The notes beneath the pieces are model-generated. The model ran no database searches and had not been told where the DNA came from. It worked only from the letters and a program-made list of their open reading frames with translations. A program made the translations under genes and the position numbers. A DNA stretch of 64,000 nucleotides from a virus: positions 1 through 64,000 of the IMG/VR virus record IMGVR_UViG_3300021141_000006. One strand, written 5' to 3'. Positions 8,561 through 61,076 of this stretch are shown one piece after another. The first letter of the stretch is position 1, and every line of letters starts with the position of its first letter.

Positions 8561-8852
8561 GGCAGTTTTGTTTGATATTGACTACCCATTTCAAAAGAAA
8601 GTAAAAAAGTATTCTGAAGAGACAATAAAACAGATTGTCTTTCAGATTGTGGATAATGTAAATTCATTTCCAAAGGACAATGAGTACACTCAGGATGTTT
8701 ACGGAGTAATAAAGGGTAAAGACCCTTTGTTTTTTATGATTGAATACCTGAACGAAGAAGATGAGATACCATTATTGGTAGACTTCTTAGAAGTTACAGT
8801 AGATGAATACTTAGATGCAATTAACGAAAACAAACACTTAAAACAATTATGA
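8529..8852 (+). CDS. acidic protein of unknown function
   Basis: A 107-residue acidic protein. The frame starts at ATG 8529, inside the nuclease gene. A shorter start at a TTG near 8568 is possible. Recognisable features are limited to a helical YSEETIKQIVFQIVDNVNSF segment and the acidic YLNEEDEIPLLVDFLEV. It overlaps the DnaA-like gene by ATGA. Function unknown. Confidence 0.55.
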   Translation: MGSTLRYTEGKAVLFDIDYPFQKKVKKYSEETIKQIVFQIVDNVNSFPKDNEYTQDVYGVIKGKDPLFFMIEYLNEEDEIPLLVDFLEVTVDEYLDAINENKHLKQL

Positions 8853-9370
8853 ACAACGAAAGCTTTGAAACAACAAAAACACTTGAATTTGTATCTGACT
8901 TCTTAGGATTTGACTTAACTCAAAAGTGCAGAAAGAGATATATAGTCGAGGGACGAATGATGTATGCTAAGCTCATGAAGCGTTATACAAATGTGTCTTT
9001 GTCTGACATTGGTCGATCAATTGGCAAAGATCATGCTACTATTATTCATTATATTAATAACTTTGGACATCTAAAGAAAACTGATCAGCAGTTTGCCTGC
9101 AAATTTGATATGATGGCAGACACCTATGAGGAGTTCCGAGAGACATGGTTTGATGATGTAAAGTTTGATGACAAGAGAAAGATTAAAGTTCTTGAGTCGT
9201 CACTTAAAGAACTAGTAGATAAAAAGAATGAATACGAACGATACTTCAACAAGATTAAGCGCATTGACTCAATTGTACAGATGATTGAGCAGAGGACACC
9301 AAAGGGTGAAGAGGAGTACGTTGAATCAAAAATTAATAGAATGTTTAACTCCATAATATATAACCCATAG
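8849..9370 (+). CDS. DnaA domain IV-like DNA-binding protein, possible replication initiator
   Basis: A 173-residue protein. Residues about 26-75 (RYIVEGRMMYAKLMKRYT, then SLSDIGRSIGKDHATIIHY) match the helix-turn-helix and signature loop of the DnaA C-terminal domain, in which the family motif reads approximately IGrxFGxRDHTTVxHA. No AAA+ ATPase domain is present. A charged coiled-coil tail follows. Such truncated forms could bind DnaA-box-like sites and recruit the primase-helicase. The window has repeated ATCGACA motifs in two AT-rich regions that are candidate targets. A transcription-factor role is also possible. Confidence 0.65.
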   Translation: MNNESFETTKTLEFVSDFLGFDLTQKCRKRYIVEGRMMYAKLMKRYTNVSLSDIGRSIGKDHATIIHYINNFGHLKKTDQQFACKFDMMADTYEEFRETWFDDVKFDDKRKIKVLESSLKELVDKKNEYERYFNKIKRIDSIVQMIEQRTPKGEEEYVESKINRMFNSIIYNP

Positions 9371-12900: not shown

Positions 12901-15900
12901 TCTTTTCATAGAAGCTTATAAGAGCTTCTTTACTAAGACCTGTGTCACCAAATGGTTTGGCATCTAATGTCAATGTAATTCCAAGGTCATCGGCAGTATC
13001 TGTAATATCTTTCATTACAGATTTGCCCATACCTTGACCTTTATCCATAGAAGCAATACTTTGTATTGATATTTCTCTTGCTCCGTCTGCTTTATCAAAT
13101 CTACTGAACTCTAAAAATGCTTTATCTCCGTAGATAAATTCTTTACCAATAGGATTTCTTTGAATGTTTCCTTTATCATTAAGTGCAGTCAAGAACTCAT
13201 TTATAATTTCATCATTGGTATATTGAGTGACTTTCTTTGTTTCCTCAGCTTTAGTTTCACTATTTCTTTTGACTAATTCGTCTATAGCTTCAGCTTTATT
13301 TTCGCCTAGTATGTCTCCATATATTGATTCAAAACTATAAGGTTTAAGATTGCGTTTGTCAAATTCAGCATTAACCCATGTCTTCTGACTTCTGTCATAG
13401 TACATCTTTCCAATCTTCTTTCCATCCAATGTAACAGTTGTTTCACCGTCAAACTCATCAATGGTAGTCTTTATCTTCTGCTTTCTTACAGCAGCCTCAC
13501 CTTCTTTCTGTTGGCCTACTTCACGAGCTTCAATCTCTTGACCCGTCTCAACCTTTCTTGATAAGGTATTCATAAACTGAATAGCCTCACGGTCTGTCAT
13601 TTCTTTGAGACCAATAGCTTTAGCTAATCTGTTTAAGAATCGAACGATAATGTTCTTGGATGCAGGTGGCAACTGTTTGTAGTTGTCTGCCAATATAGCA
13701 AACAATTCAGCTAACTTCTCTTCGTTCTTGATATTCTCGTCATAGTTACTCTCAAAGTCATCTAAATAACTCATAAGCTCAGTGGTACCCTCAGCTTTCT
13801 TGAGTGATTTACGAACTGAGTTAATCATTGAACGAGTTAGTCTTTGTGCCTCAACATCTGTGTTGACTCTTGATAGTATCAAAGCATGGAATACCTCGTG
13901 AGGTACCGTTCTATTGGTTGCCTTCTCAAGATTGATGTGTATCTGACCTGTCTTTCTGTCATAAAGACCACCTTCTGATAGTCTTCCGTCCATATCTTTT
14001 GTTGCCTCAACAAATGCCTCAGGTGTTGCGTGAACAACAATCTTTACCTTTGGTAATACTTTAGCAATTGCCTTGGCAGCTCTTGCAATTTGTGCAACAA
14101 CTTTTTCCTTTCCTACATTACGTATTTTCGCTGCAGTAAAGTCATTCTGTGTAAGTACATTGTTTTGCTGAGTAAGATCATCCAATGTCTGATCAACCTG
14201 TGGCACTTCCTGTACCTCAATGGTCTCAATCTTTGCAGTTGGCGCTGCTTGTACAGTAGGTTGTACAACTTCTTCTACTACAGGTGCAACTTCCGCAGCA
14301 GGTGCTTGCTGTTCTTCTTGAGTAGGAGTTAACTGATTTAAGAACTCAGTATAAGTACCTCCATCATTTTTTCTAGCTTCAGCATATGCTATTGGGTTAG
14401 CTTCAAGCTCAGCTGCAAGACCTTGTTTTTCTTCTTGCGTAACAGTATCTCCAAGATTGTTTATTGATTCCCTCTCCGTTTCAACAAAGCTATCTATAAC
14501 GATTTGCCTTTCTTCTTCAGTGAGCTTTGTTTGAGCTTGCCCTCCTTCAGTTTCTTGTCCGACAACTTCTTCTGCGATAGCTTCTCCGGTAACGACTTGA
14601 GGTTCTGATTCGGGTACTCTTTCCTCCACTTGTTGGCCAACTCCGGTTCCTGACTGAACAGGAACCGCATCTGCGCCTTGCTCTTGAACGGCATAACTTA
14701 ATCCTTTTAATTGTTCGTTAATCTCATCGACTCTATCCTTTTGTTTTGCAACAAGGTTAGGGTCTTTATCTTTTATTTCTTTATCTAAACTTTCTCTTTC
14801 CATCAATAACCCAAAGGCTTCCCTTTGAGCTCCGACTGAAAAGTTTGTTGGTATTTGTCTTAGTGCAGGATACGCTTCATTGATGGATTTTATTTCCTCA
14901 TCAGCTTGTTCCCTTGTTATTTGATTATCCTCAACCTTTTTATTTATTGAAGATATAGCTCCCTCACGGGCATCATCATTTAATATGATATCTCTATATA
15001 CAGCAAATCTATTATTTGAAACTTTGTTTGATATAGGTTCTACTACACCGACTGATGCTGTACTACCCATACCACCGGCTACAGCTCCAACAAGAAATGC
15101 ATTACCTGATTCTTTTAATAGCTGCCCTATACCTTCAGTAGTTGATAGGTCAGCAGCATCTTTAAAGAATTTATTCTGTACAATTTGATTGTATATTTCT
15201 TTGGATACAGTACCACCACCTTCTTCCTTGGCTTTGTCTAATTGGTTTGATTGGATGATTCTATTAGCTACATCCTTTTCTACTCCCTCAAAAATCTGCT
15301 GAGTAAACTCGGTACCACCCTCAACTATACCTGCACCTGTAATCTTAAGCATTCCATTAGCTACGCTCGCTGCAACACTTTTGTCAATTGCACTTTTAAT
15401 TTCTAATAGCGAAGCGTTTTTTGGAAGAGAGCTAAATGTCTTTGACATGATATACTCAGAAAACATTCCGAGCGTTTTGTTTTTTGCAGCGCCTGTAGCG
15501 ACTTTAGCTCCTAACTTCTCAAGAGCTCCAATGACTAGACCATAAGGTACAGACATTATTTTCTTTTCATTTTCGCTCAATGCATCAAATTGAGGACCTC
15601 TCATTTGGTCTTCAAGTGCATTGTATGACATTGCAAAGAATCCTGCATTAGTTCCTGCGGTAGCAAGACCACCACCTACAGCTCCTAAGCTTTCTCCTAT
15701 CGCAAAAGCGGCTTGTTCTATAACTCCTCTATCAGTTGACTTTGCATATTCTTCAGTAGTTCCCATACCAAATGCATCAGGAACACTTCTTAAAACTTGA
15801 TTTGCTTTGTTTTTTACTGATTTCTGAATTTCATTTTTTATCTCATCATCACTGAATCCTAACTCTTTTAGCCTTTCATATTCACCCGGTGTAATTGCAT

Positions 15901-17197
15901 CTGCAAGAGTTTTAGCATCTGTTACAGCTGCTGCTCCTGCAATACCAAAGTCAATCATCGCCTGAGACACATCTGTCAATCCTTCTCCAACACCTCTAAG
16001 TACAAGACCTGTAAGGCTACCTTGTTTCTCTCTTTCGGCAGCCGTAATAACTTTGGCATCTTCTAAGTTATTTGTAAGTTTATCAATCTTTTCAGCTTTA
16101 CCAATGACACTTGACATAATGTCTCTTCTTTGGGTCAAAGACTTACGTTCATTCTCAAGCGCTGCTGATCTTGAATCAAAATCAGCCTTAGACATTTTAC
16201 CGCCTTTTACATCCTGATTGAATTTAGCAACTTTTTGCTCGTATGATTTTAAGTCAGAATCATAAGTATCAGCTTTAGCTCTAGTCATTTCTCCATTAAG
16301 AAGTTGTCTTTCTCTTTCAAAATAACTATCTACATCCATTCCTTCTAGCAATGATGCTTTGAATTTATTTGGATTAGACCCAACTAATTCGACTAAGTCT
16401 TCTACGCTTTGTGCATTTTCAAACTGTTCTCTTTCTGATTTCTTTACTAGATTGGTAGAGACAAAACTTTTTAATTCCTTGTCAGCATTAGGATCTGATA
16501 AGTCAATTGTTTCTTGGTTTAGAATAGTACTATTAATACCATCTCCTATTTTTGATGTGACTGTTAGTTGCCAACCTAATTTTTTAAATTCTAAATTTGT
16601 TCCTTCAAATTGCTTATTTAAAATATTGGCAGTTGTCTCCTCATCTAAATCTCTAAGTTTTTTTGAGGATGGAATTTCATTAATAGAAGAATAAGCCTCA
16701 AACTCTTTTTTACCAAAGTCTTCAGCCATCATTTGCATGGCTTCTTTGTCACTCAATGCATCAAATTTTCGGATTGGCTTTGTTTCTTTAGGTTGCTCAA
16801 ATGTACTTTCAACCTTTTGACTTGGGGCCTTAGCTTTTTTCTGAGCGTTCTGAACCTGATCTATATAGTCGTCAGTTCTATATTTCTTTTGTGAAGTAGG
16901 CTCTTCAGTAACGCCTTCAAATCTTCGAGAAGAAGAACCCGATGTAGGTTTTTCCAATTTGGAAGCCGATACGGTAGACTCTTTTTTTTTTACAGGTTCT
17001 TGATTGAAACCAAGTTCAGGGAACTTTGAATTTACAACACCGTAATCGTAATTATTCTTTTCGGCAGTAGCAACATAGTCTTTCAATAATTGCTGATCGT
17101 ATCCTTTCAATTCAGGGAATTTGCCAAATACAGTATTCCAATTGTAATTATACTTCTGTGCAGTAGCAATGAAGTCTTTTAATAGTTGTTCATTCAT
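9956..17197 (-). CDS. giant polyvalent virion protein with metallopeptidase and GNAT-like domains
   Basis: I chose the ATG at 17197 (an in-frame TTG lies 6 nt upstream), giving 2413 residues. The N-terminus has two tandem repeats of about 29 residues (LLKDFIATAQKYNYNW and LLKDYVATAEKNNYDYG, each ending in a KFPEL-type motif). A zinc-peptidase motif HEVFH lies near residue 1100, followed downstream by EKLAELFAILADN, a possible third-ligand region. A GNAT-like segment near 1340-1450 has GQGMGKSVMKDI and SKEALISFYEKNGF. The last 700 residues are helical with a hydrophobic stretch near 2100-2130 (YAAGTGIGGVLSALF). Large multi-domain proteins of this kind are carried inside phage heads and ejected into the host. 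Its position at the end of the virion operon, after other internal-protein candidates, fits that role. A Pro/Glu/Val-rich linker near 834-901 overlaps a second frame that also looks coding. Confidence 0.7.
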   Translation of the reverse strand: MNEQLLKDFIATAQKYNYNWNTVFGKFPELKGYDQQLLKDYVATAEKNNYDYGVVNSKFPELGFNQEPVKKKESTVSASKLEKPTSGSSSRRFEGVTEEPTSQKKYRTDDYIDQVQNAQKKAKAPSQKVESTFEQPKETKPIRKFDALSDKEAMQMMAEDFGKKEFEAYSSINEIPSSKKLRDLDEETTANILNKQFEGTNLEFKKLGWQLTVTSKIGDGINSTILNQETIDLSDPNADKELKSFVSTNLVKKSEREQFENAQSVEDLVELVGSNPNKFKASLLEGMDVDSYFERERQLLNGEMTRAKADTYDSDLKSYEQKVAKFNQDVKGGKMSKADFDSRSAALENERKSLTQRRDIMSSVIGKAEKIDKLTNNLEDAKVITAAEREKQGSLTGLVLRGVGEGLTDVSQAMIDFGIAGAAAVTDAKTLADAITPGEYERLKELGFSDDEIKNEIQKSVKNKANQVLRSVPDAFGMGTTEEYAKSTDRGVIEQAAFAIGESLGAVGGGLATAGTNAGFFAMSYNALEDQMRGPQFDALSENEKKIMSVPYGLVIGALEKLGAKVATGAAKNKTLGMFSEYIMSKTFSSLPKNASLLEIKSAIDKSVAASVANGMLKITGAGIVEGGTEFTQQIFEGVEKDVANRIIQSNQLDKAKEEGGGTVSKEIYNQIVQNKFFKDAADLSTTEGIGQLLKESGNAFLVGAVAGGMGSTASVGVVEPISNKVSNNRFAVYRDIILNDDAREGAISSINKKVEDNQITREQADEEIKSINEAYPALRQIPTNFSVGAQREAFGLLMERESLDKEIKDKDPNLVAKQKDRVDEINEQLKGLSYAVQEQGADAVPVQSGTGVGQQVEERVPESEPQVVTGEAIAEEVVGQETEGGQAQTKLTEEERQIVIDSFVETERESINNLGDTVTQEEKQGLAAELEANPIAYAEARKNDGGTYTEFLNQLTPTQEEQQAPAAEVAPVVEEVVQPTVQAAPTAKIETIEVQEVPQVDQTLDDLTQQNNVLTQNDFTAAKIRNVGKEKVVAQIARAAKAIAKVLPKVKIVVHATPEAFVEATKDMDGRLSEGGLYDRKTGQIHINLEKATNRTVPHEVFHALILSRVNTDVEAQRLTRSMINSVRKSLKKAEGTTELMSYLDDFESNYDENIKNEEKLAELFAILADNYKQLPPASKNIIVRFLNRLAKAIGLKEMTDREAIQFMNTLSRKVETGQEIEAREVGQQKEGEAAVRKQKIKTTIDEFDGETTVTLDGKKIGKMYYDRSQKTWVNAEFDKRNLKPYSFESIYGDILGENKAEAIDELVKRNSETKAEETKKVTQYTNDEIINEFLTALNDKGNIQRNPIGKEFIYGDKAFLEFSRFDKADGAREISIQSIASMDKGQGMGKSVMKDITDTADDLGITLTLDAKPFGDTGLSKEALISFYEKNGFTPNLEEAFGGEFETKEELIDYVLEEEGEALPMIREPKQKFAVRKQKTTSPDKIVDSGTKAGKTDAEIRQEGKAAGFTNKEMTEALSKYYTKEQKVFMKSGVKGLVGRFVDGARRFKQQFLTSKGLLPKIGFTYKEKMEGEISAEANRAAKTAKKFGVLFDKFTGDKELLLKAFDKALRGDKSIQLPAGFAGLANEMRNHIDRLSQMLITTGAVEGDMADAIRENMGTYITRSYEIFDNKNFRQKVGEQELQAAKNFLRTEPGMISLAKAEAARTGTTINEALDILVDNKIDEYFADAETGALVKGAKLGSKDLSTLKERKEIPEQIRMLMGEYSDPAMNYARTVLNISSLVARHQFLTQVKEAGMGKFFFEKNDSQRPKGFDTEIASEGSDTMSPLNGLMTTPEIAEAFDLYNGKQGEDHWAQQAIKVYYKAMGLVKWLKTIGSVATHAKNIFSNLGFVAVNGHSLIEIGKAVKVVAQDLKTMSKPEVEAKIDEYIKAGIMRQGAGINEIRDMFKDADMDGFLERRLSMKKRKGVMGKIRQAISSRSSKIISAMEDAYQAEDDMFKIAAYETEMNRYADALYNKSKDQLTDKEKQEVSDIAANNVKNTYPTYSRIPEGIKRLRRFPLFIGSFISFQAESYRTAYNTIALAKDELSSKNKKIKNIGARRVAGASSYLAAKTAMLSYLGYAAGTGIGGVLSALFDDDDEKKKEKDVRSFLPPWSQNSDLIILKAADGQIEYIDFSASDPHGGLNKALNAFLKGDDLLDSFKQSTLELVGQFQGPDILTNLAIQLKGNENDFGKPIYNEEDSFSEKADKILDYVYKVVEPGTITSIRKAAASEQSLGQIAFGDATGLKVRKSDVKEQFGYKLAEFDESFKDIRKIYNSEYYKSLEIEEDPKATKKDIQEQNKKTEQSLVRANEKYAAKAKELMDLINSANRLGVDYDELINELGFIKSTMGKSNISEMENGGDEFIKEKED
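14494..14694 (-). CDS. possible overprinted small basic phage protein inside the giant gene
   Basis: A 66-residue frame on the same strand as the giant gene but in a different frame. It begins MPFKSKAQMRFLF and continues SQEPELANKWRKEYP, a pattern I recognise from short phage proteins that start MPFKS-x-AQ. A Lys-rich tail with repeated KKL and KLKE follows, also typical of such proteins. The giant protein's own frame here is a low-complexity linker (ERVPESEPQVV). Either both frames are used, or a once separate small gene was captured and is now read in another frame. Translation in this frame is unproven. Confidence 0.35.
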   Translation of the reverse strand: MPFKSKAQMRFLFSQEPELANKWRKEYPNQNLKSLPEKLSQKKLSDKKLKEGKLKQSSLKKKGKSL

Positions 17198-17212
17198 ATG
17201 CAAATATACTTA

Positions 17213-18808
17213 TTATCTCGGTTTCCCACCACTTGCTGCAGCACCTCCTCCTGATGATTTGCTACTACCTGATGAAGCTTGACCTGTTCTTTTTTCTCTT
17301 TCCTCATCAGTGTATGTTGAAGAGCTATATAGCGCATCTTGGCTTAAGCTTATATCAGTAGGTAAATAAGCTCCAAATAATGTAAATCCGTGGATATCTC
17401 TAAATTGATTCTTACCTTCTTTGTAAACTTCTTGAGCTTGCTTTTGATCAATACCATCTAGGTATGAAGCTAAGTCATCAGCATTTGTAACTTTTTTGAA
17501 TTTTTCAGGCTTGTCTGCATATTTAACATTTCCACCTGATGCCACATACATTACATTCTTGCCGCCTGTTTTGTCAAAATAAAAACTGTAGTCTGTAGTA
17601 TTCAAAGCGCCTAGGTTACCTGTTCTCATGGCATTGTTTGCCTTCTCATAATAAGAAACCTTATCTGTTTTTTTATCATTACCAGTTCCGCGTCCGTAGT
17701 TAGGCGCATATTGGATAGAAGGCTCTGCTTGAAGATCAGTCTTTGTCTGTTGGTCTACAGCATTGCGTGTTTGCACGCGAAGGAAGTCACTAGCTGCTTT
17801 TGTTTGATTTTCAGTAAACTTAGGGCGAATCATTCCTGACCCATCATCCTCAAGTAAAATATATTTAGCATTAGTCTTTGCTAACTCAGCATCGAATGTA
17901 GGCTCATAAAAATCATTGGTTCCAGGAACCTTATCAACTGCGTCTGTCAATAAACCAAGTTGGTTAAACGGATTGGCAAGTTCAGCCTTAATCATACCAC
18001 TCTCCCATTCCTGATACGCAGTCAATGTCTTTTGATCCTCATCGCTAAGTCTAGTTCTTAATGTAGGATCAGTCATCTCATCGATGCGAAGCATACGATA
18101 CGCACCTTTTAACTTTGTGACGCTTGTTTTTAAAACCTCTCCCAATGCCTCAACCTGACCATCAACAGCTGCGACATAGTTATACTTGTCGAGCTTTACA
18201 TTCATTCTATTTCGTAATTGATTGACGCTCATATAGTTGTCAGGATTTTCATCCATCATCATAACTTCTTTCCCGTCATCTCCTTTTTTCTTTATCATCT
18301 TAGCAATACTAACCTGACCATTGGTAGGGTTGATGTACGCCTTGGTATTAGTAAAGTTGCTAAGACCTTCAATTTGTTCCATAAGCCAAGCCTCAGTTTC
18401 CTGTGATTTTCCTAGCTCATATCGCTCCATTAATTCTTTGGCTTTATCTTGGTATTCTTTTGACACCTCAAACATTTGCTTTGTGCTATCTCCCAAGTTC
18501 TGTCTCTGAACTGTATAATCACGAACACTTAGTCGACCGCTCTTGAGTAGCCTGTCCTGCATTAAGCGGGCTTGTGCTGCATCATTGGCAAAGTCTAATG
18601 TCCATTCATTGGCAGCCTTAAAATCACCTGTAGGTGCATTGGCCAATGTCTCACCGTATTGACGAGATGCCTCATCAATTGCAGCTTTCTTTTCTTCACG
18701 GATAGTTGCCTCAGTATTGAGCATATCCGTTACATTCTTCCCTACCTCAGCCCAATTAATTTGTGACTCAGCACTGCGTTCCGCAAACTTATAGTATGTC
18801 TTAGCCAT
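17213..18808 (-). CDS. predicted internal or structural virion protein
   Basis: A 531-residue mostly helical protein, beginning MAKTYYKFAERSAESQINWAE and ending in a Gly/Ser-rich tail (SSGSSKSSGGGAAASGG). Charged helices are abundant (QMFEVSKEYQDKAKELMERY). It sits between the giant polyvalent protein and a small internal-type protein. The order resembles the trio of large internal proteins at the end of podovirus virion operons, so it is probably an ejected internal protein. No enzymatic motif was seen. Confidence 0.5.
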   Translation of the reverse strand: MAKTYYKFAERSAESQINWAEVGKNVTDMLNTEATIREEKKAAIDEASRQYGETLANAPTGDFKAANEWTLDFANDAAQARLMQDRLLKSGRLSVRDYTVQRQNLGDSTKQMFEVSKEYQDKAKELMERYELGKSQETEAWLMEQIEGLSNFTNTKAYINPTNGQVSIAKMIKKKGDDGKEVMMMDENPDNYMSVNQLRNRMNVKLDKYNYVAAVDGQVEALGEVLKTSVTKLKGAYRMLRIDEMTDPTLRTRLSDEDQKTLTAYQEWESGMIKAELANPFNQLGLLTDAVDKVPGTNDFYEPTFDAELAKTNAKYILLEDDGSGMIRPKFTENQTKAASDFLRVQTRNAVDQQTKTDLQAEPSIQYAPNYGRGTGNDKKTDKVSYYEKANNAMRTGNLGALNTTDYSFYFDKTGGKNVMYVASGGNVKYADKPEKFKKVTNADDLASYLDGIDQKQAQEVYKEGKNQFRDIHGFTLFGAYLPTDISLSQDALYSSSTYTDEEREKRTGQASSGSSKSSGGGAAASGGKPR

Positions 18809-18811
18809 ATC

Positions 18812-19642
18812 TTAGAATTGGAATGGGTTACTCTTTTGATCTGCTGCTCTGAATAATTTTCTAAATTGAGCATTCTTAATCAACATATCATATTGCTCAG
18901 GAGTTAATGCTTTTTTAAATGCATTGTATTCAGATTCTGACATTTGACTGATTTTATCAAAGTCAAGATTAGTAAAACCTTCACCTGCAGTACCTAATCC
19001 TGCAAAATTAATATTACCAATTTTTTTAATTTCATCAGGTGTTAATTGCATTTTCCCAAATGCCTCTTGCTCAGATAAAGAAGTGTCATTGTATAACGCA
19101 GGTAATTTAGCAGCTTGACCAATCATGCTAGTTACTCCTGCAATTGCTCCTTTAGCAGCCTGTGCAGCACGCTCTTCGTACATTGCTGATGCCTGTTGTG
19201 CGCCTTCAGCTTCATCTAAAGCTAATTGAGCCTTAATGTCTCTGAGTCTTGAGTCCTCAGCAGCTGATAGCTTCTCAAGGTCCATCATCTCTTGTCCTTG
19301 ACGTGTTTGGATATCTCTAATTGCATCTGAGTAGCCGGCATAAACTCGTCCTGCTACCGCTGCAGCACCACGCTCGCTTTCACGACCTGCCTCAATTGAC
19401 TGTGCACCAACAGATGCCAATGCCTCACGCTCTAACTCGTATGGTTTCATTTGAATACCAAGTTGGTCGTAGACATTTACTTCCAAGAATTTATCAGCTT
19501 CTTGTCTGAATTTTAAAGCATCAGCGTCAGACTCCTTTTGGAGCTTTCTCATTCTGCGCATATCTCCAATTGAGAAGGCTGTGGTTAAGGCTGTTGATAC
19601 AGCGCCACCTATTGCTGCTATTGCTGCGAATCCTATTGGCAT
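18812..19642 (-). CDS. predicted internal virion protein with N-terminal hydrophobic segment
   Basis: A 276-residue protein. The start is a hydrophobic Gly/Ala-rich segment (MPIGFAAIAAIGGAVSTAL), followed by a long Ala/Glu/Arg coiled-coil (AALxF and AEGAQQASAMYEERAAQ types). This architecture recalls T7 gp14-like small internal proteins that form a channel on infection, but no sequence identity is visible. A TATCTTTG promoter box lies 22 nt before the start. The following genes 17213-18808 and 9956-17197 probably belong to the same transcript. Confidence 0.5.
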   Translation of the reverse strand: MPIGFAAIAAIGGAVSTALTTAFSIGDMRRMRKLQKESDADALKFRQEADKFLEVNVYDQLGIQMKPYELEREALASVGAQSIEAGRESERGAAAVAGRVYAGYSDAIRDIQTRQGQEMMDLEKLSAAEDSRLRDIKAQLALDEAEGAQQASAMYEERAAQAAKGAIAGVTSMIGQAAKLPALYNDTSLSEQEAFGKMQLTPDEIKKIGNINFAGLGTAGEGFTNLDFDKISQMSESEYNAFKKALTPEQYDMLIKNAQFRKLFRAADQKSNPFQF

Positions 19643-19664
19643 TTTATTATTTTTTTATATTATA

Positions 19665-19672
19665 CAAAGATA
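19665..19672 (-). promoter_or_regulatory. -7 box TATCTTTG before the internal-protein operon
   Basis: Plus-strand CAAAGATA, which reads TATCTTTG on the minus strand, a match to the Bacteroidota -7 consensus. It is 22 nt from the start at 19642, in a 36-nt gap. Confidence 0.5.
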
Positions 19673-19678
19673 AGTTTT

Positions 19679-20482
19679 TTAAGGGAAACTCTTCATAACC
19701 TCTGATTCAACGGCAAATAGCTCAACTTTTGCCGTATTGTCGTTTTCTAAAGTGAACAAACAGTAGTGCCCTAACACGCCATGAGATTCAGCCACAGAGT
19801 TCTTAATGTATAAGAAATAAGCATTCTGTATGCCCGGTATAGAGCCACCTGTAACTGTGGTATCTACTACAAAGTAGTTGTCACCTGCAGGATAGTTCTG
19901 AACAATATCAACAATCTCACCACACAATACAGGCGTACTAAAGCTAGGCGGCAAAGCATAGTAAAGGTAGTCGCCTACACTAGCTATGCTACCAATCTGT
20001 ATCAACGGGTTTATTGAGAAACCAATCTCAACGTTAGCGCCAGTGCCTGTGACACTTAAGCTTCGTCCTACACCATTCAATGATCTCAATGCATACTCAT
20101 CAACTCCCGCAGGTACATCTCCTGAGTTTCTAATAAATGCAAAGTATACCTGCTCTTTCTTTTGAAACCATTCTTCTTGAATGAACCCACTGTTTTGAAT
20201 GTCAGTCTCAATTGGAGTTGCCTCCCACGTATCATCACCCTGCAAAGCAAGTGTCTTGAACAACTTGTTTTCTAGTGGTGAATTATTAAATACGCTAGTT
20301 ATTTTTGAATTGTATTGTACACCATAGAAATTGTTTCTAAGCGCATTTACATTATGTCGGTATAGGTTACCACCTTTAAACGTATAAAAGTAATTGTTCA
20401 TACCAATCATCCAATCAGGCATGAAAGAGTAAAATGATGGCCATCCATCAAATGTTTCGCTATATGTTAGTGTATATTCCAT
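19679..20482 (-). CDS. tail-associated structural protein
   Basis: I chose the ATG at 20482 (a TTG lies 9 nt upstream), giving 267 residues. The N-terminus MEYTLTYSETFDGWPSFYS and MIGMNNYFYTFKGGNLYRHN resembles the structural-protein family found next to the gp10-like stabilisation protein in crAss-like and Cellulophaga podoviruses. The rest is beta-rich. It probably belongs to the tail or hub. The function is inferred from context and partial recognition. It starts 2 nt after the preceding stop, in one operon. Confidence 0.5.
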   Translation of the reverse strand: MEYTLTYSETFDGWPSFYSFMPDWMIGMNNYFYTFKGGNLYRHNVNALRNNFYGVQYNSKITSVFNNSPLENKLFKTLALQGDDTWEATPIETDIQNSGFIQEEWFQKKEQVYFAFIRNSGDVPAGVDEYALRSLNGVGRSLSVTGTGANVEIGFSINPLIQIGSIASVGDYLYYALPPSFSTPVLCGEIVDIVQNYPAGDNYFVVDTTVTGGSIPGIQNAYFLYIKNSVAESHGVLGHYCLFTLENDNTAKVELFAVESEVMKSFP

Positions 20483-20484
20483 AT

Positions 20485-21801
20485 TTAACAACTACATGAA
20501 TCAAGTGTTACAATTACTCCCGCAGGAGACCCCGGTACTGAAACGCTTCCGGTTCTAGCGCAAATATAAGCAATTGTGTATGCAGCTACCGCTTGTGTCT
20601 GTGGAGCTCCTGCGCAATTGTTATAACTTACAGTTACTGAAGAAGCAGTCATATTATCAACGCTATAGTTCTGACATATATCAGCACAAGATTCATAAAC
20701 AGTAATACTATCAATGGTTACTGTTGCTGTAGTAAATGTCTCTGATATCACATTGAATACACATCCTGCGTAAGATGGGTAAGATACTGTAACGAAGTCA
20801 CCTACTTGAACACCAACTACATCTGAGTTTGCAACTATTGTCAAACCATCTCCGCAACGCTCAATAATATATGCATTGTATTGACATTCTCCCATTTGAA
20901 TAATAATTCCACTTTGTACCAAAAACCAATTGTATGAACTAGGTAACATAGTAGGCGCGTGGTAATAACCATCAGTTGCTACAACTTCACCATTAGGATC
21001 CAAGAATACCCAATCAAATAGACCAAGCGTTGTGCCATTTCCATTGACAGGGTAGTTATAGTAAATCAGATCATCCGGATACTCACATACTGAGTCAGCA
21101 GTTGGTCTAACTTGACTAGTATAAGTTGGAAACAAAGGTATAGGGCACGATACGTTTAAATCAATACCACTTGGATTACAAGGAGAAAATACTGTAATGT
21201 TCAGCGTAGATGGATTGATAAGTGGTTTAGGTATAACCATAATGCAATTGCCCGGTGCATTTATAGATGTCTGAATTTGAGTTGGTAATGCACTGATTGA
21301 AGATGTTGTACCATTATACACGTATGTAGATGTTGATGGATCCCAATCATAGTTATTTAAAGTATGTGGGCTATTCGCTACAATACCGCAGTCACTGTCT
21401 TCATCGCCAACATAAACAGGAAGTCCTGATGGAGCTGTTAGAAGCCCGTAGACGGGAGAACTGAACGTATTATATGTAATACCATCATAAGAAGCAATAA
21501 AGCCCTTAGGCACAGACAAAGAGTTAAATGACACTATTATAGCGCCTGTATCTCCAATGTCATTTCCTAAATCAACTTCAATGTTAAATACACCATCTCC
21601 TACGATATATCCATCAAAGTCAACTCCGCATCTAGACCCGCATGATGGGCAGGGCTTTGCTGATCCCAAAACGCAGGACGTTTGAACTCTTGTAATTGTA
21701 CCATCAGAGTACACTCCATTTGGAGCGCAAACAGTAAGCGCCGCGTTAGTATATACTGCGGTCGCTTGAGCTAGTGTTGGTGCGTCTAAGTAATATGGCA
21801 T
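20485..21801 (-). CDS. Cys-rich tail structural protein sharing a C-terminal module with its neighbour
   Basis: A 438-residue beta-rich, Thr/Ser/Val-rich protein with many cysteines (KPCPSCGSRCGVDF and CADICQNYS). The last about 65 residues (ending VIVTLDSCSC) align with the end of the 1538-residue upstream protein: C-x(2-3)-C, then SVTVSYNNCAG, then a C and a final C-x-C. I did not recognise the family. The neighbourhood implies a tail component, and the shared module may be an attachment or stabilising domain. Confidence 0.5.
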   Translation of the reverse strand: MPYYLDAPTLAQATAVYTNAALTVCAPNGVYSDGTITRVQTSCVLGSAKPCPSCGSRCGVDFDGYIVGDGVFNIEVDLGNDIGDTGAIIVSFNSLSVPKGFIASYDGITYNTFSSPVYGLLTAPSGLPVYVGDEDSDCGIVANSPHTLNNYDWDPSTSTYVYNGTTSSISALPTQIQTSINAPGNCIMVIPKPLINPSTLNITVFSPCNPSGIDLNVSCPIPLFPTYTSQVRPTADSVCEYPDDLIYYNYPVNGNGTTLGLFDWVFLDPNGEVVATDGYYHAPTMLPSSYNWFLVQSGIIIQMGECQYNAYIIERCGDGLTIVANSDVVGVQVGDFVTVSYPSYAGCVFNVISETFTTATVTIDSITVYESCADICQNYSVDNMTASSVTVSYNNCAGAPQTQAVAAYTIAYICARTGSVSVPGSPAGVIVTLDSCSC

Positions 21802-21811
21802 AATAATTTAT

Positions 21812-24800
21812 TTATTCTCTACATCCACACTCTTGCGATACCTCTATCAATACTCCTCCTGATATTACAGTTGGATTTACTGATGCAAGGCCACATATGA
21901 TTTGTGTTGCATTTTGTAATATAGTAGCTGTTCTATTAACTCCACTGCAATCTCTGTAAGATACAGTAGCTGTTCCGATGCCTACGTTTTGGAATGTCCA
22001 CTCTCTACAAGGATCAGAACATGGATCGCACTCACAGCAAACATAATCAATATCTGCTGTACTTGCAGACCAACATAAGTCAACTTCATTAAAAGTTCTA
22101 TAATCCCAAATTAAGTATAGGTAGTTACCTACGGTACCCGCAGGAACATCTGCGTAGTAGTAATTACCACCCCCCAATATTGTACCTGTACTAGATGCAG
22201 TAACCAATGCGTTTATACCCGAGGTATTGTTAGCATATAGTGTTGAAGATCTTAGGTATCTAAACTTATTCTGAGAAGGAATAAAGTCATAGTTAGCTAA
22301 CGCAAACTTGTTAGATATGATTCTAACCGTACTACCATTTGTTGGTATATTCGGTTGACCTTGAGGCCCTGTATTGGTATTATATCTAGATACAATAGGA
22401 TTTACTCCTGATGCAAATATTTGTAAATTACTTTGTAAAGACCCCGTATATGTACCATCTGTGTATCTCCATTGAGGATAGATGTTTTTGCCCGCATCAA
22501 CATTTGATGTCAATACCACCTCAACAATAGTAAGCTGATTAGCCGTAGGGCAATTCACAGTGACTTCTAATACAACAGCTCCTGTAACTAAAATCTCAAC
22601 ATTTACAATATCAACTGTATTTGAGTCTTTATCTACAACTAATGTTCCATCAAAAGATGTATCTCCAGTTGTAAATGTATTTCCATCGTATGTGGCTGTA
22701 ATATTGAACTCAGCATCAGGCTCAATACTTACAACATTGTAAGTAATGTCAACATCACCAACTGCTTGACCTACGTTTACACAGAACTCATTAACCTTTG
22801 TGATGTCGCTAATTACAAACTCTTGAGTGATACCACAATCTATACAGCTACTGAAGCTTGGTACTTTTTGATTGTTTGAGCTTAATACATACTCATCTAA
22901 GTATGGGTCAAAAGCTCCAAGTTTTTGAGTGTCAAAGTCAGTGTTAAATAAATCTCTAAACCAAGACCCCATCCCCATATCTGAGATGACTTTCAATTGG
23001 CCTAGACCTGTCTCGCTATCTTGTATATTAATTACAGCTCCACGTTTAACATCGGTAAAGTATCTATTTGATCCCCACTGAATGTAACTCTCAGGGTTAA
23101 ATGAAATACCAAATTTTTCAACTCGTGCAATTTGCGTTCCTAATACCTCAGGTACAGACGTAAGTGCTCCACCCGCTCCGGCATCTGATAGCAAATTCTT
23201 GCTAGTCAATACATAAGACACTTTGTCTTCTTGTAAAACAAGTACGTCAGTCTGACGTGCATCAAGAATATAGATAGGGCCAAATAAGCGCTCTAACTGC
23301 TTAAAGTTAAGTAGACCAAGGTTGAACTCATTGAGTTTATTTACGTTGCTCTCATTGTTGTAAATACCACTATAAGTCATATCAGCGTATCTTCTGATAG
23401 CCCGATAGTCTTCCGCAGCAATACTTGTGACACGGTTACCCAATGTGATAAAATTACCTACAATTGAGTCACGAATCTTGTAACTCTCAACACCATTGCC
23501 AAAAGCATAACAGTTAAAGAAACCTGTGTCAATGACAGCAGGAGACCCTGTTGAGAAGTTTTGGTTCATGATGTTACCCTGATGCTCGCCCTGTGCATTT
23601 ATTTCAAAAGACAAGTTGTTCTCAAAGAAAACATCAGGCAAAGTATCTGCCGGCTCAGTCTCAAAAACAAATGTGGACTCAGCTCTAAACACCTCAAAAT
23701 TAGCTTCAACTAAAGAGTTTTTTGTTCCACAAGCAGATGTTCCACTTATTTGTAATCCTAAATAGTTGCTAGGGGAATCTCTATAGAATCTGTAATAATT
23801 TATACACTCATTAGTAGGCATTGAGCTAGGCCCAAATGCTAATGTAGGTATGAATGTATTTTGTATTGTACATGCAGTAGAGTTGCTTACATATGGAGTT
23901 CCTTCATCCAATAGGTTAGCTATGTTGTCACCAACAAACCACTCATACATATTTCCATAGTTAGCCTGAGAAGTAATTGTTTTTTCTAAAGTGTAAATTC
24001 GTGTCTCACAGTTATTGCCACCGCCGTTTTCTTTACCTCTTTGGAATTTAATATTCATATTGATAATGGTCCCCTGAGGTATATCATAATCAATAAAAGT
24101 ACCGGGCAATGCCGTATCCTCCAAGTTCATAGGGTAATTAAGTATCGGATACTGCCCATTATTTTTTACCTCAACTGCTTTATTCCCTGCTGTTATAAAT
24201 GCATTTTCAGAAAATATAGCATTGAAATTATTAGGCTTTATTTTCATATATACACCTGAAGGAACAGGAATATTGACGCCTGTCACAGAACTTGGTATAG
24301 TAACAAAGTCTTTAGTTTGAGCTTCTTTTTCTAATACATTTGCATAAGCACATTCATCAACAGCTCCAGAAGAATCTCTCTTGACAATTAGCCTATCACC
24401 TGTATTTACTTTTCTAGTATTCTCTCCTTCCAATAAGAAATAAGCGTAATTTGTTTGAGGGTCAACAAAGAATATATTACTGTAGATTGTCTCATATGTA
24501 TCTCTATCTGCTTTAATTACAAACTTATATTTTGTTGCCCAATATGGTGCAACTTGAGGAATTGGGTTACTTGGTATTGTTACAAGTATGCTATTCTTAT
24601 TTACAGAATTACCACAAGGTACGTGCTCAGTATTAAACTCACTAACTAAAACAGTTGAAGATCTTCCAAAATCGTCCATATATACAATACCAATCTCATA
24701 GTCACGATTGCTATGCAAGCTTTGGTTTTGTGATATGGTTTGAAAAACAACATCTGCTGAGTTTATTTTCATGTACTCATATGCAGTATATGTAGGAGAT

Positions 24801-56788: not shown

Positions 56789-57232
56789 ATGGATGACTAC
56801 CTAAAGTATTGGAAGGTCATACGCCAATATGTCAAGATAAAGTATGGACTAAACCAAGCTGATCTTGATATGATCCTGTTTCTCTACTCAGAGGCGTACT
56901 TCAATAAGGATAAATTTGATGAGTTCACCCGCCTAGTCGGATGGGACTCGAAGCGCTTCAAGCGAATGCTCAAAGAGGGATGGCTTGAGTCGTTCCGTAA
57001 GACTGACCCAAAAACACATAGGAGAGCCCTGTATAAGCTCTCCTTTAAAGCGAAGCATCTTGTGACGCTGATCTATAAATACCTGAACGGTGAACAGCTC
57101 ATCGCTGAGTCTTACGTCAACAACCCACTAATGCTCAGAAAAAACAAGAGATACCGCGATGCTGTGATGAGAGGTGCCGTGCTAAAGCTCAACGACTCTA
57201 TACGACAACAACAACATCTCGCTCGTGAATGA
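56789..57232 (+). CDS. putative winged-helix regulator embedded in the minus block
   Basis: A 147-residue protein. The N-terminal part (YLKYWKVIRQYVKIKYGLNQ then ADLDMILFLYSEAYF) and KDKFDEFTRLVGWDSKRFKR match a common Bacteroidota phage type with a MarR-like winged-helix fold. The C-terminal part is basic (MLRKNKRYRDAVMRGAVLKL). It probably regulates transcription or replication. It runs opposite to its surroundings, and its last 35 nt overlap the end of groES on the other strand. Confidence 0.55.
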   Translation: MDDYLKYWKVIRQYVKIKYGLNQADLDMILFLYSEAYFNKDKFDEFTRLVGWDSKRFKRMLKEGWLESFRKTDPKTHRRALYKLSFKAKHLVTLIYKYLNGEQLIAESYVNNPLMLRKNKRYRDAVMRGAVLKLNDSIRQQQHLARE

Positions 57233-57455
57233 TGGTGTACGGCTTGTCTTTGATCACCATCGTGTAGGAGTGCCCCTTGTCGTAGTAAATCTCGTCACCT
57301 GACTTGATAGCCGCCACCTCAGTGCCCGCCACCACGACCTTGCCAATCTTGTAGCGAAAGTCATTGGCGTCATGTGCACTCAATAGGAGGCCTGACTCAG
57401 TCTTGACCTCCTTCTCAATTGTCTCAATAATTATATTTTTCCCGATAGCGATCAT
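57198..57455 (-). CDS. groES: co-chaperonin GroES
   Basis: An 85-residue protein. IAIGKNIIIETIEKEVKTES is the first strand pair, followed by GLLLSAHDANDF, where the mobile loop lies, then IGKVVVAGTE, KSGDEIYYDK and the end IHERDVVVVV. These match GroES in order and length (usual length about 95). It caps the GroEL encoded just before it. It overlaps groEL by ATGA, and its 3' end overlaps the plus-strand regulator gene by 35 nt. Confidence 0.85.
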   Translation of the reverse strand: MIAIGKNIIIETIEKEVKTESGLLLSAHDANDFRYKIGKVVVAGTEVAAIKSGDEIYYDKGHSYTMVIKDKPYTIIHERDVVVVV

Positions 57456-59071
57456 TGTGCTTGATATGTTCGCGCCATTGTGATAATAGCGTCAGTTGAT
57501 AAAATTGTCGTAGCCACACTCACAGCGTTCTGTAGGGCTGAGCGCGTCACCTTGAACGGGTCAATGACACCCATCTGCAATAGGTCACCGTAGCTATTTG
57601 TCTTCAAGTTGTACCCATACCCCTCATCCATGGTGCCATCACCAAACTGATAGATGTCCTCAAACTTAAGGCCGGCATTCTCAAGAATTTGCTTCACAGG
57701 TGTCCTCAACGCCCTGCTCATGATCTCAAACGCAATATGAAGCTCAGCACTGTCAGCCTGCATGCCATTGAACGCAATGGCCTCTTCAAGTAGTGCCTTG
57801 CCACCACCCGGTAGCACACCCTCTTCCAAGGCAGAGCGAACCGCCGACACAGCATCATCGACCCTGTCGTATAGCTCCTTCTGCTCAATGTCAGTCGTGC
57901 CACCTACAAAGATGACACCAACACCGCCTGTGAGCGAGGCAATGCGCGACAGAATAAAGTCCTTCTCATGCTTCTTAGTCGCCTCACCATGCGCTGCCCA
58001 TAGTTGCTCCACGCGCTCAGCCAATGCCTCTTCGTCAGTACGCACCGGTGAGTTAATGATCACAGTGTTCTGCGAGTCCACAATAATCTTGGCAGCATGA
58101 CCAAGGTCAGCATACGTCATTAGGCTCAAGTCATCACCGGTCTTCTCACTGAAGTACTTTGCACCCACCGCTAGGGCAATGTCACCCATCAGCTCATGCT
58201 TCTTGTATCCAAAGTTAGGCGGCTCAATAGCACACAGATTTAAGACACCCTTAGCCACGTTCGCTGCTAATGTGTTGACCACCTGTGTCGCACACGGCGC
58301 AATAATGAGAAGGCGCTTGCCCTCTTGAATAATTGGCTTGAGAATATTCTCTAACTGCAAAATATTATGGATCTCAGCGTCACACACCAAGACCATCACG
58401 TCCTCGAACACACACTCATCACGCTTGTGGTCATTGATGAAGTATGGCGAGTAGTACCCACGCTGTACCTTGAAGCCATGAGTGCTCTCAGCATATGTCT
58501 CATTAGTCTGCGACTTTTCCACGGTCACAATACCATTGGTTCCAATCTCATTGTACACTCGTGAGATGATGCCACCAATATGCTTGTCGTTGTTCGCCGA
58601 GATTGTCGCCACGTCATTGAGCATCTTTTTGGTCACCTTCTTCTTCTTCTTCTTTAAACTCTCCACCACCTCATCAGATATCTCCACCATGTGGCGTAGC
58701 ACCTGTATGCGGTTCAAGTCAGACGTAATGAGATCATCACCCGCCTTGACCAAGGCCTCAGTCAACACAATGGCCGTAGTCGTTCCATCACCCGCATTCG
58801 TAGCAGTCTTGTCAGCAGCCTCCTTCATCATCCTTACAGCTAAGTTCTCAACCGGATCAATCAAGTCAACAGCCTTCGCGACAGTTACACCATCCTTCGT
58901 TACAGTAATACCACTCGTATGATTCGCTGACTCGATCAGCACTGTGTTGCCCCTTGGGCCTAAAGTGCTCTTGACAGCACCTGCGATTTTTGTGATTCCA
59001 CTGATGAGCCTCGCTCGCCCATCATCCCCGAAACGGATATCCTTCGGAGAGTAACCTAAGTTCTCAGTCAT
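57452..59071 (-). CDS. groEL: chaperonin GroEL
   Basis: I chose the ATG at 59071 (a TTG lies 6 nt upstream), giving 539 residues against a usual 545. Conserved blocks are KIAGAVKSTLGPRGNTVLIE (nucleotide site), GDGTTTAIVLTEAL (with the catalytic Asp), DRVDDAVSAVRSALEEGVLP followed by GGG, and apical HGFKVQRGYYSPYFIND. The usual Gly-Gly-Met tail is absent (ends TMARTYQAQ). Groups of Lys (KKKKKKVTKK) lie near residue 140. It probably folds phage proteins such as the capsid. The gene order groEL then groES is reversed relative to bacteria, and the gene looks GC-richer than its neighbours. Confidence 0.9.
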   Translation of the reverse strand: MTENLGYSPKDIRFGDDGRARLISGITKIAGAVKSTLGPRGNTVLIESANHTSGITVTKDGVTVAKAVDLIDPVENLAVRMMKEAADKTATNAGDGTTTAIVLTEALVKAGDDLITSDLNRIQVLRHMVEISDEVVESLKKKKKKVTKKMLNDVATISANNDKHIGGIISRVYNEIGTNGIVTVEKSQTNETYAESTHGFKVQRGYYSPYFINDHKRDECVFEDVMVLVCDAEIHNILQLENILKPIIQEGKRLLIIAPCATQVVNTLAANVAKGVLNLCAIEPPNFGYKKHELMGDIALAVGAKYFSEKTGDDLSLMTYADLGHAAKIIVDSQNTVIINSPVRTDEEALAERVEQLWAAHGEATKKHEKDFILSRIASLTGGVGVIFVGGTTDIEQKELYDRVDDAVSAVRSALEEGVLPGGGKALLEEAIAFNGMQADSAELHIAFEIMSRALRTPVKQILENAGLKFEDIYQFGDGTMDEGYGYNLKTNSYGDLLQMGVIDPFKVTRSALQNAVSVATTILSTDAIITMARTYQAQ

Positions 59072-59074
59072 ATA

Positions 59075-59090
59075 CAATTAAATTTAATTG
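59075..59090. promoter_or_regulatory. 16-bp perfect palindrome before groEL
   Basis: CAATTAAATTTAATTG is its own reverse complement. It lies between the -7 box (59094-59101) and the groEL start, where it would overlap the transcription start. It is a candidate operator for a repressor of the chaperonin genes. The AT content makes chance formation possible. Confidence 0.45.
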
Positions 59091-59970: not shown

Positions 59971-60168
59971 TTAAGACTCGTATCCCATCATCTTCTCGCG
60001 CATAGATGCACGTACATCAGCCTCTACCATCATCTCAATCTTCTGCTCACGCTTCATCATCTTTCTGAGGTCTATAGCCTGCTGAATGCCAGTGACTCCA
60101 CACGGTCTCTCATTAATCAATCGTCCGTTCTTCATAGTCAACCCGGACATGTCAGTGTACTTTTTCAT
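59971..60168 (-). CDS. small Met/Arg-rich helical protein
   Basis: I chose the ATG at 60168, which follows a TATCTTTG box by 14 nt. A longer start at 60195 would sit in the promoter. The 65-residue protein has MKKYTDMSGLTMKNGRLI and a highly charged helix (LRKMMKREQKIEMMVEA). A terminator follows, so it forms a single-gene unit. Function unknown. Confidence 0.5.
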   Translation of the reverse strand: MKKYTDMSGLTMKNGRLINERPCGVTGIQQAIDLRKMMKREQKIEMMVEADVRASMREKMMGYES

Positions 60169-60182
60169 AATTATCGTTTTTA

Positions 60183-60190
60183 CAAAGATA
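60183..60190 (-). promoter_or_regulatory. -7 box TATCTTTG of the 65-residue gene
   Basis: Plus-strand CAAAGATA, 14 nt before the start at 60168. Confidence 0.5.
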
Positions 60191-60317
60191 AGCATTTCAG
60201 ATATATGGGGGCTGAGGGTTATATATAGGTCTGACGAGGTCGACCCCCGTCGCGGAAACGGCTTTTAAAAAGGGGGTGGGGGGTGCATTTCGACCGCCTT
60301 TGCCCGATTTTTTTGGC
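60191..60317. other. gene-free stretch with a GC-rich patch and G runs
   Basis: This part of the control region has no credible gene. A GC-rich patch with GTCGACC and CCGT / ACGG hairpin arms lies around 60236-60270. It is followed by two G runs (five and six G) and then a T7 run. It borders the palindrome array and may be part of the same control region. Confidence 0.4.
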
Positions 60318-60630
60318 TTTTTGTACATAGTACAATAAGTAGTTATGGTACAAAGTACAATAAGTCCCGCACCCCTACGCACGCACGCATACGCACGTAC
60401 ACACGCGCGCCCGCGCACACGCACACGCACGCGCACACACATGAGATTGATTTAGTTATGGTACAAAGTACAATAAGGTTAGTGTCATTCGGACACTAAG
60501 TAACGCATTTAGTTATTGTATAAAGTACAATAAGTAGTTAGTGTCATTCTTACACTAAGGTAGCTCATTTAGTTAGTGTCATATCTACACTAAGTCGACC
60601 AAATAGTAGTAAGTGTCATTTGGACACTAA
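60318..60630. repeat. array of eight 21-bp palindromic elements
   Basis: Eight inverted repeats of exactly 21 bp share the form TTAKTGT-N7-ACAMTAA, each followed by G. Positions: 60318-60338, 60343-60363, 60456-60476, 60479-60499, 60513-60533, 60538-60558, 60573-60593, 60610-60630. Four belong to a TTATTGTAC type and four to a TTAGTGTC type. Loops vary while arms are kept (compensated or single mismatches). They may be operators of a dimeric regulator or initiator, or RNA hairpins. Confidence 0.75.
60376..60442. repeat. alternating purine/pyrimidine (Z-DNA-like) tract
   Basis: About 67 bp of CG, CA and TA steps with few breaks, lying between the second and third palindromes. It is strikingly GC-rich in an AT-rich region. 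Such DNA can flip to the left-handed form under negative supercoiling, or may be a microsatellite. Confidence 0.7.
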
Positions 60631-60845: not shown

Positions 60846-61076
60846 ATGAACACTAACATACGTATTGAGGTACATAACAACAAAGATAAGAGTGTAATAA
60901 CATTTACAGATAGTCGTAAAATTAAACACTCACAGAAAGACACAACAAACGGCGCGAAGCGGGTTAGAATTGAAAACTACAAAGACATGGCATTGAACGC
61001 AGTTGTGCGCGTAATGCAAAAAAGTGACCGCGCAAACAAACAACGCGAAGAGCGAAGAGCGAAGCGCAACAAGTAA
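60846..61076 (+). CDS. small basic protein at the start of the second early block
   Basis: I chose ATG 60846 (a TTG at 60774 lies in the promoter). The 76-residue protein has MNTNIRIEVHNNKDKSVITF followed by a very basic end (NKQREERRAKRNK). It may bind nucleic acid. No homologue was recognised. It lies next to the palindrome array and could be a regulator of it, which is only a guess. Confidence 0.5.
   Translation: MNTNIRIEVHNNKDKSVITFTDSRKIKHSQKDTTNGAKRVRIENYKDMALNAVVRVMQKSDRANKQREERRAKRNK

Follow-up and report, generated by a model that had tools for sequence, protein, structure and literature searches.

In this study, an array of eight short palindromes in a phage genome was analysed, and the explanation that we favour, with moderate confidence, is that it consists of mimic operators for two paralogous repressors of the NrtR/AraR family of a Bacteroidota host, most likely serving as a sponge. 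Judged by their sequence, the sites very probably belong to the operator type of NrtR/AraR regulators (Nudix plus winged-helix proteins), and it is likely that NrtR proteins of the host would bind them during infection. Since the sites resemble those of host repressors while the phage carries no detectable repressor gene, the phage probably takes over, or makes use of, metabolic switches that belong to the host. The original prediction of a palindrome array at 60318-60630 is confirmed as an observation, and its interpretation, in which a dimeric regulator, a replication initiator or an RNA-hairpin system could use the array, is partly supported.

Architecture and genomic setting of the array

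The window, i.e. the whole stretch of 64,000 nucleotides that was analysed, is part of a 66,935-bp IMG/VR record. A direct repeat of 99 bp is present at both ends of this record, and the phage genome therefore appears to be complete, with a circular length of about 66.8 kb. All eight 21-bp palindromes were found where they had been claimed, with half-sites seven bases apart in each of them, a G directly after every element and an irregular spacing (25, 113, 23, 34, 25, 35 and 37 bp) that was reproduced exactly. The description of an exact unit, TTAKTGT-N7-ACAMTAA, is slightly overstated, because four elements match it exactly and the other four carry one mismatch. The existence of two variants is confirmed; a paired change, T4:A18 to G4:C18, separates four T-type elements (TTATTGT-N7-ACAATAA, with slight departures) from four G-type elements (TTAGTGT-N7-ACACTAA). 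With at most one mismatch, the whole record harbors these eight elements and none outside the array, against a chance expectation of 0.05 per 64 kb in Markov-1 simulations; when three mismatches are allowed, the window-wide count is ordinary (28 versus 21 expected), so only the cluster is significant.

Table 1. Coordinates, strands and particulars of the array elements and neighbouring features in the window.
Feature	Position	Strand	Remarks
Element 1, T-type, TTTTTGTACATAGTACAATAA	60318..60338	+	1 mismatch
Element 2, T-type, TTATGGTACAAAGTACAATAA	60343..60363	+	1 mismatch
Element 3, T-type, TTATGGTACAAAGTACAATAA	60456..60476	+	1 mismatch
Element 4, G-type, TTAGTGTCATTCGGACACTAA	60479..60499	+	exact
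Element 5, T-type, TTATTGTATAAAGTACAATAA	60513..60533	+	exact; 1 base off a host site
Element 6, G-type, TTAGTGTCATTCTTACACTAA	60538..60558	+	exact
Element 7, G-type, TTAGTGTCATATCTACACTAA	60573..60593	+	exact; 1 base off the L231 host site before GAPDH
Element 8, G-type, TAAGTGTCATTTGGACACTAA	60610..60630	+	1 mismatch
Alternating purine-pyrimidine (Z-DNA-like) tract	about 60368..60443	.	similar tract in the L046/L050 clade
Conserved block GATTTTTTTGGCTTTTTGT	60306..60324	+	extends into element 1; retained by the distant L022/L046 clade
G-tract GGGGGTGGGGGGTG	60272..60285	+	kept in relatives
Putative Bacteroidota-type -7 box TATCTTTG of the leftward unit	60183..60190	-	consensus match only; conserved in relatives
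First gene of the leftward unit	59971..60168	-	small protein, 0 family matches
First gene of the rightward early unit	60846..61076	+	small protein, 0 family matches; homologue after the array in L116/G036

In the clade of the window, the elements are directional, with an almost invariant right half and a degenerate left half; plain dimer binding does not predict such asymmetry, and growth of the array by duplication would explain it. Use as an RNA-hairpin system was not borne out, as the fold of the array (z of -1.9, with 2 of 100 shuffles equally stable) has only a slight advantage that does not rise clearly above composition. An Rfam search gave no match, and the paired T4:A18/G4:C18 change, which is explained by two operator classes, counts against the hairpin reading.

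As predicted, the array is placed between a minus-strand unit and the second early block, where it occupies the gap between two divergent gene blocks. The leftward block, comprising structural genes, groES and groEL, extends from about 60.2 kb to 10 kb, and the rightward block of early and replication genes runs from about 60.8 kb through the record ends to 10 kb. The predicted Z-DNA-like tract is present, although it is not beside the array but within it, separating element 2 from element 3. The nearest element is 128 bp away from the leftward -7 box, and no convincing candidate for a rightward -7 box was seen in the window. The array is also located at the minimum of strand asymmetry (GC-skew); the skew switches where the coding strand changes, and a skew switch is present in an array-less relative, MW202828, too, so the position at the minimum is non-diagnostic for an origin.

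With reference to conservation, 80 relatives were collected through the groEL protein; the phage-encoded GroES and GroEL (57198-59077 of the window) are common to many environmental viral contigs. The four closest relatives with sequence covering the region all carry the array, and a search for the consensus in related phages, as the original prediction had proposed, thus revealed conserved units in the nearest ones. Allowing two mismatches, nine units were counted in L089/L006, 11 in L100/L009, eight in L010 and seven in L085; the sites of L010 and L085 are all T-type. Alignment of the relatives indicates that the units are kept while the spacers, the alternating tract and the copy number (3-11) drift, and the array of the close relatives is situated at the same divergent-promoter and GC-skew switch. 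A clade at about 65-68% groEL identity (L022, L046, L050, L081 and L114) displays three to five units at the same junction and retains the G-tract and the GATTTTTTTGGC block. For 42 relatives, the sequence upstream of groEL extends over 3 kb or more; five of them harbor at least two sites at one mismatch, and the array is therefore lineage-specific and not universal in these phages. A further array-bearing phage, G037, is apparently complete, with a 127-bp end repeat. A near-identity search of phage records returned no match, and a terminase search recovered Flavobacterium elemo, Cellulophaga, Maribacter and Tenacibaculum phages, from which the array was absent in all seven records checked. 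The hosts of these isolated, array-less relatives support a Bacteroidota host.

Operator family and two site types in bacterial genomes

Scans of viral contigs for motif pairs detected 17 and 11 stretches, compared with none for a scrambled-arm control pair; only clustered sites were counted, as single-site viral matches were mostly at chance level. The same kind of scan in 84,980 genomes, one per species, disclosed 18 cellular loci, and the NrtR winged-helix domain PF21906 is encoded in all 18 pair-bearing genomes as against 4 of 14 control genomes. In cells, the motif stands beside NrtR genes or their targets, with many of the paired sites adjoining NrtR-like (Nudix-type), nadA/nadB, pncA or pncB genes; the arms of the search pattern were derived from the phage, and this gene adjacency is independent of the pattern. 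A well-described member of the family is BtAraR of Bacteroides thetaiotaomicron, whose sites contain GTGT-N7-ACAC in a 21-bp motif, with target DNA including AAAGTGTAAAAAAGACACTTA and AAAGTGTTACTTTTACACCCA (PMC4666351). At one operon, such sites follow each other in tandem with 3 bp between them; the dimer spans 25 bp of DNA, which it contacts through Lys179, Arg180 and Asn181 of the recognition helix (PMC4666351). The view of a control array for a dimeric regulator is thus upheld and, by sequence, narrowed to the NrtR/AraR operator type, and the label "uncharacterised" holds for the phage array itself but not for its motif, which is that of an already described family of regulators.

In 148 Bacteroidota genomes, single exact sites were about as frequent as a control pattern, and enrichment was noticed in the family of genome G081 (40 versus 16 control). 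T-type sites are found 12-160 bp from NrtR genes with the helix DKANFRK in eight genomes of one family, and G-type sites (GTGT-N7-ACAC) go with DKRNFR regulators, AraR included, in several other phyla too, this pairing being drawn from related genomes that are statistically non-independent. At one locus (L204), a G-type site is located 90 bp after its own regulator gene, where the helix reads DRRNFRK. Weaker G-type sites, which were not selected by the phage-derived pattern, occur at NrtR, GAPDH, zwf and kinase promoters. Both paralogues are encoded at the bacterial locus L231, where GAPDH is preceded by a G-type site and a GH3 glycosidase gene by a T-type site, and at locus L260 both site types stand together before GAPDH. 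Both regulators of L231 match the BtAraR structures 5bs6/5deq (E 4e-46 and 9e-48). The T-type and G-type sites thus appear to correspond to two NrtR paralogues, with the helices DKANFRK and DKRNFRK, respectively, which suggests a simple recognition rule (Arg in the helix with G in the operator, Ala with T) for a large and poorly mapped Bacteroidota regulator family.

The site-bearing loci comprise GH3-like and GH16-like genes, SusC-like receptors, zwf, Entner-Doudoroff-type enzymes, GAPDH, enolase and glutamate dehydrogenase, names that were read from the sequence and not from a family search, and the sites adjoin beta-glucan, pentose-phosphate, GAPDH and enolase genes. Separately, it was noted that genes for an NrtR paralogue, a BadF-like kinase and GAPDH are clustered at L231, L251 and L260, with zwf included at two of these loci. 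These clusters constitute a predicted glycolysis regulon of NrtR-family regulators in Bacteroidota, of which we know of no earlier description.

Weight matrices built from the host sites ranked, at the top of the entire phage, exactly the four T-type and the four G-type elements, each with its own matrix. The phage site TTAGTGTCATATCTACACTAA differs from the host site TTAGTGTCATATTTACACTAA at one position (20/21 match), and likewise TTATTGTATAAAGTACAATAA differs from TTATTGTATTAAGTACAATAA at one position. The similarity of the arms is partly circular, because most host sites were picked by their fit to arms taken from the phage, a choice that had no bearing on the inner bases, on the adjacent genes or on the helix pairing. 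For the G-type sites, the seven inner bases come nearer to host sites than shuffled versions do (0/5000), and the result for the T-type sites is borderline (P 0.05). It is important to note that the "host" sites are those of candidate-family bacteria with the T-type/DKANFRK and G-type/DKRNFR pairing, which may not be the actual host of the phage; a comparison of 20 kb of phage DNA with 240 genomes of this family gave only short, chance-like matches.

Candidate binders and competing explanations

A complete NrtR system has its regulator gene on the same replicon, and no such gene was detected here: the PF21906 domain was absent from the phage and from 22 array-bearing viral records, the absence being weaker evidence in several of these because they are fragments, and a recognition-helix search in five records gave no convincing match. 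A phage-encoded NrtR was set aside as the binder for lack of domain and helix matches, and the regulator is therefore probably that of the host. Two other kinds of phage protein were considered and rejected, as neither is common to all array phages. The first, g60, is a winged-helix-like regulator (phrog_12817), which is present in the array-less MW202828 and elemo phages and was not found in the complete array-bearing G037. The second, two small DnaA domain IV proteins (PF08299; window 8849-9370 and L005:7522-7827), has no DnaA-domain counterpart in the array-bearing G037, G036 and G035. With no NrtR detected and the remaining candidates not shared by the array phages, the host paralogues are the likeliest binders.

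On the favoured reading, NrtR/AraR dimers of the host would occupy the array, the four T-type sites serving the DKANFRK-helix paralogue and the four G-type sites the DKRNFRK-helix paralogue. As the phage genome multiplies, the 8-11 near-consensus sites per genome would soak up both repressors, and this titration by a DNA sponge would derepress sugar catabolism and glycolysis in the host. The number of sites and their distance of at least 128 bp from the leftward -7 box do not suggest simple promoter occlusion, and they favour titration, to which we give a little short of an even chance of being the main effect. More tentatively still, a genomic sponge that titrates both repressors could turn on glycan degradation and central carbon metabolism of the host with no need of a phage protein. 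A sponge, promoter control and origin control are all equally compatible with the constant location of the array at the divergent junction, and the same binding may also let the carbon status of the host act on both divergent phage promoters.

Such promoter control is possible, though rather unlikely, as the main effect. If it were, the same host paralogues would gate the divergent promoters, and early and late transcription would track the sugar or ADP-ribose status of the host, with titration unneeded; we regard this alternative as doubtful, albeit the strongest of those considered. The array is placed exactly in the divergent gap, at the GC-skew minimum, and in the L022/L046 clade a -7-like box, TATGTTTG, begins about 20 bp ahead of the first base of a T-type site, so that gating keeps a place among the candidate roles; in bacteria, moreover, the sites of NrtR/AraR regulators precede the regulated genes. 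The distance to the leftward box and the lack of a convincing rightward box in the window speak against gating, as do the 8-11 sites compared with one to three per host locus and the drift of site number and spacing between relatives.

A further, unlikely possibility is that the likeness to NrtR operators is convergent and that the array is bound by a phage protein outside the NrtR family, which would repress or activate the two divergent units. The phage does encode g60, conserved in relatives, together with many small early proteins without family matches, and other phages of the group have other early-region palindromes, as if each had its own regulator. Besides the distribution of g60, which does not follow the array, both site types, the spacing and partly the inner bases match host NrtR sites. 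Least probable of all is that the array is the iteron part of a replication origin, bound by an initiator such as a small DnaA-domain protein, because the position at the GC-skew minimum, the adjoining AT-rich and alternating tracts and the two DnaA domain IV proteins of the phage, which fit the replication-initiator use that had been proposed, are outweighed by the array-less state of most groEL relatives, among which the array is not generally conserved, by array-bearing phages devoid of DnaA-domain matches (G037 of g60 as well), in which no cognate initiator was thus found, by a skew switch that follows the coding strand even without the array, and by the lack of any element resembling a DnaA box.

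Relation to known systems and other palindromes

The array shares with the BtAraR operators the 21-bp near-palindrome with a GTGT-N7-ACAC core and tandem sites about 24 bp apart, and the BtAraR helix, DKRNFRK, is the one that goes with G-type sites (PMC4666351). The BtAraR system differs in that a host sugar operon carries just one or two sites and the regulator is encoded in the same genome, whereas the phage has 8-11 sites and no detected regulator. Comparably, NrtR operators at the NAD genes of several phyla read TTAGTGT-N7-ACACTAA and are often paired, with DKRNFRK in the regulators read; unlike the array, they control cellular NAD biosynthesis with one to three sites per locus. Some phages carry operators of the host LexA repressor at phage promoters, and these promoters are thereby coupled to DNA damage. 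They resemble the present phage in holding operators of a host transcription factor in phage DNA, and they are not known to have a dense array directed at a pair of metabolic paralogues. Iteron origins and phage stoperators are likewise repeats of about 20 bp bound by protein at a control region, with the binder encoded by the element, whereas no candidate binder is common to all array phages. Searches of open-licence papers, which do not extend to most subscription journals, revealed no phage decoy arrays of host repressors. The operator family is known, and no regulator-less phage array of mimic operators that serves two metabolic paralogues was seen in the literature searched.

Phages are known to reprogram the metabolism of their hosts by means of genes. 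If the favoured reading is true, the host metabolism would be reprogrammed through DNA sites alone, with two sugar repressors targeted together, and the operator types could allow a sequence-level prediction of the host switches targeted, as well as a guess at the host of a phage.

Other palindromes were also noticed. Two further viral contigs hold seven (L104:737-897) and four (L101:11306-11397) near-tandem TTAGTGT-N7-ACACTAA units, spaced at 23-25 bp between early genes. Upstream of groEL, three copies of GTGTCTT-N2-AAGACAC occur in each of L013 and L056 and three copies of GTCCGAC-N2-GTCGGAC in L045, about 0.4-1.3 kb apart, and three clustered AGTC-type palindromes of a different motif are present in L030 (2486-2553). 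The array-less relative MW202828 (L141) displays 14 dispersed copies of a perfect 16-bp palindrome, GTGTCGTTAACGACAC, confined to its early region (13245-24670).
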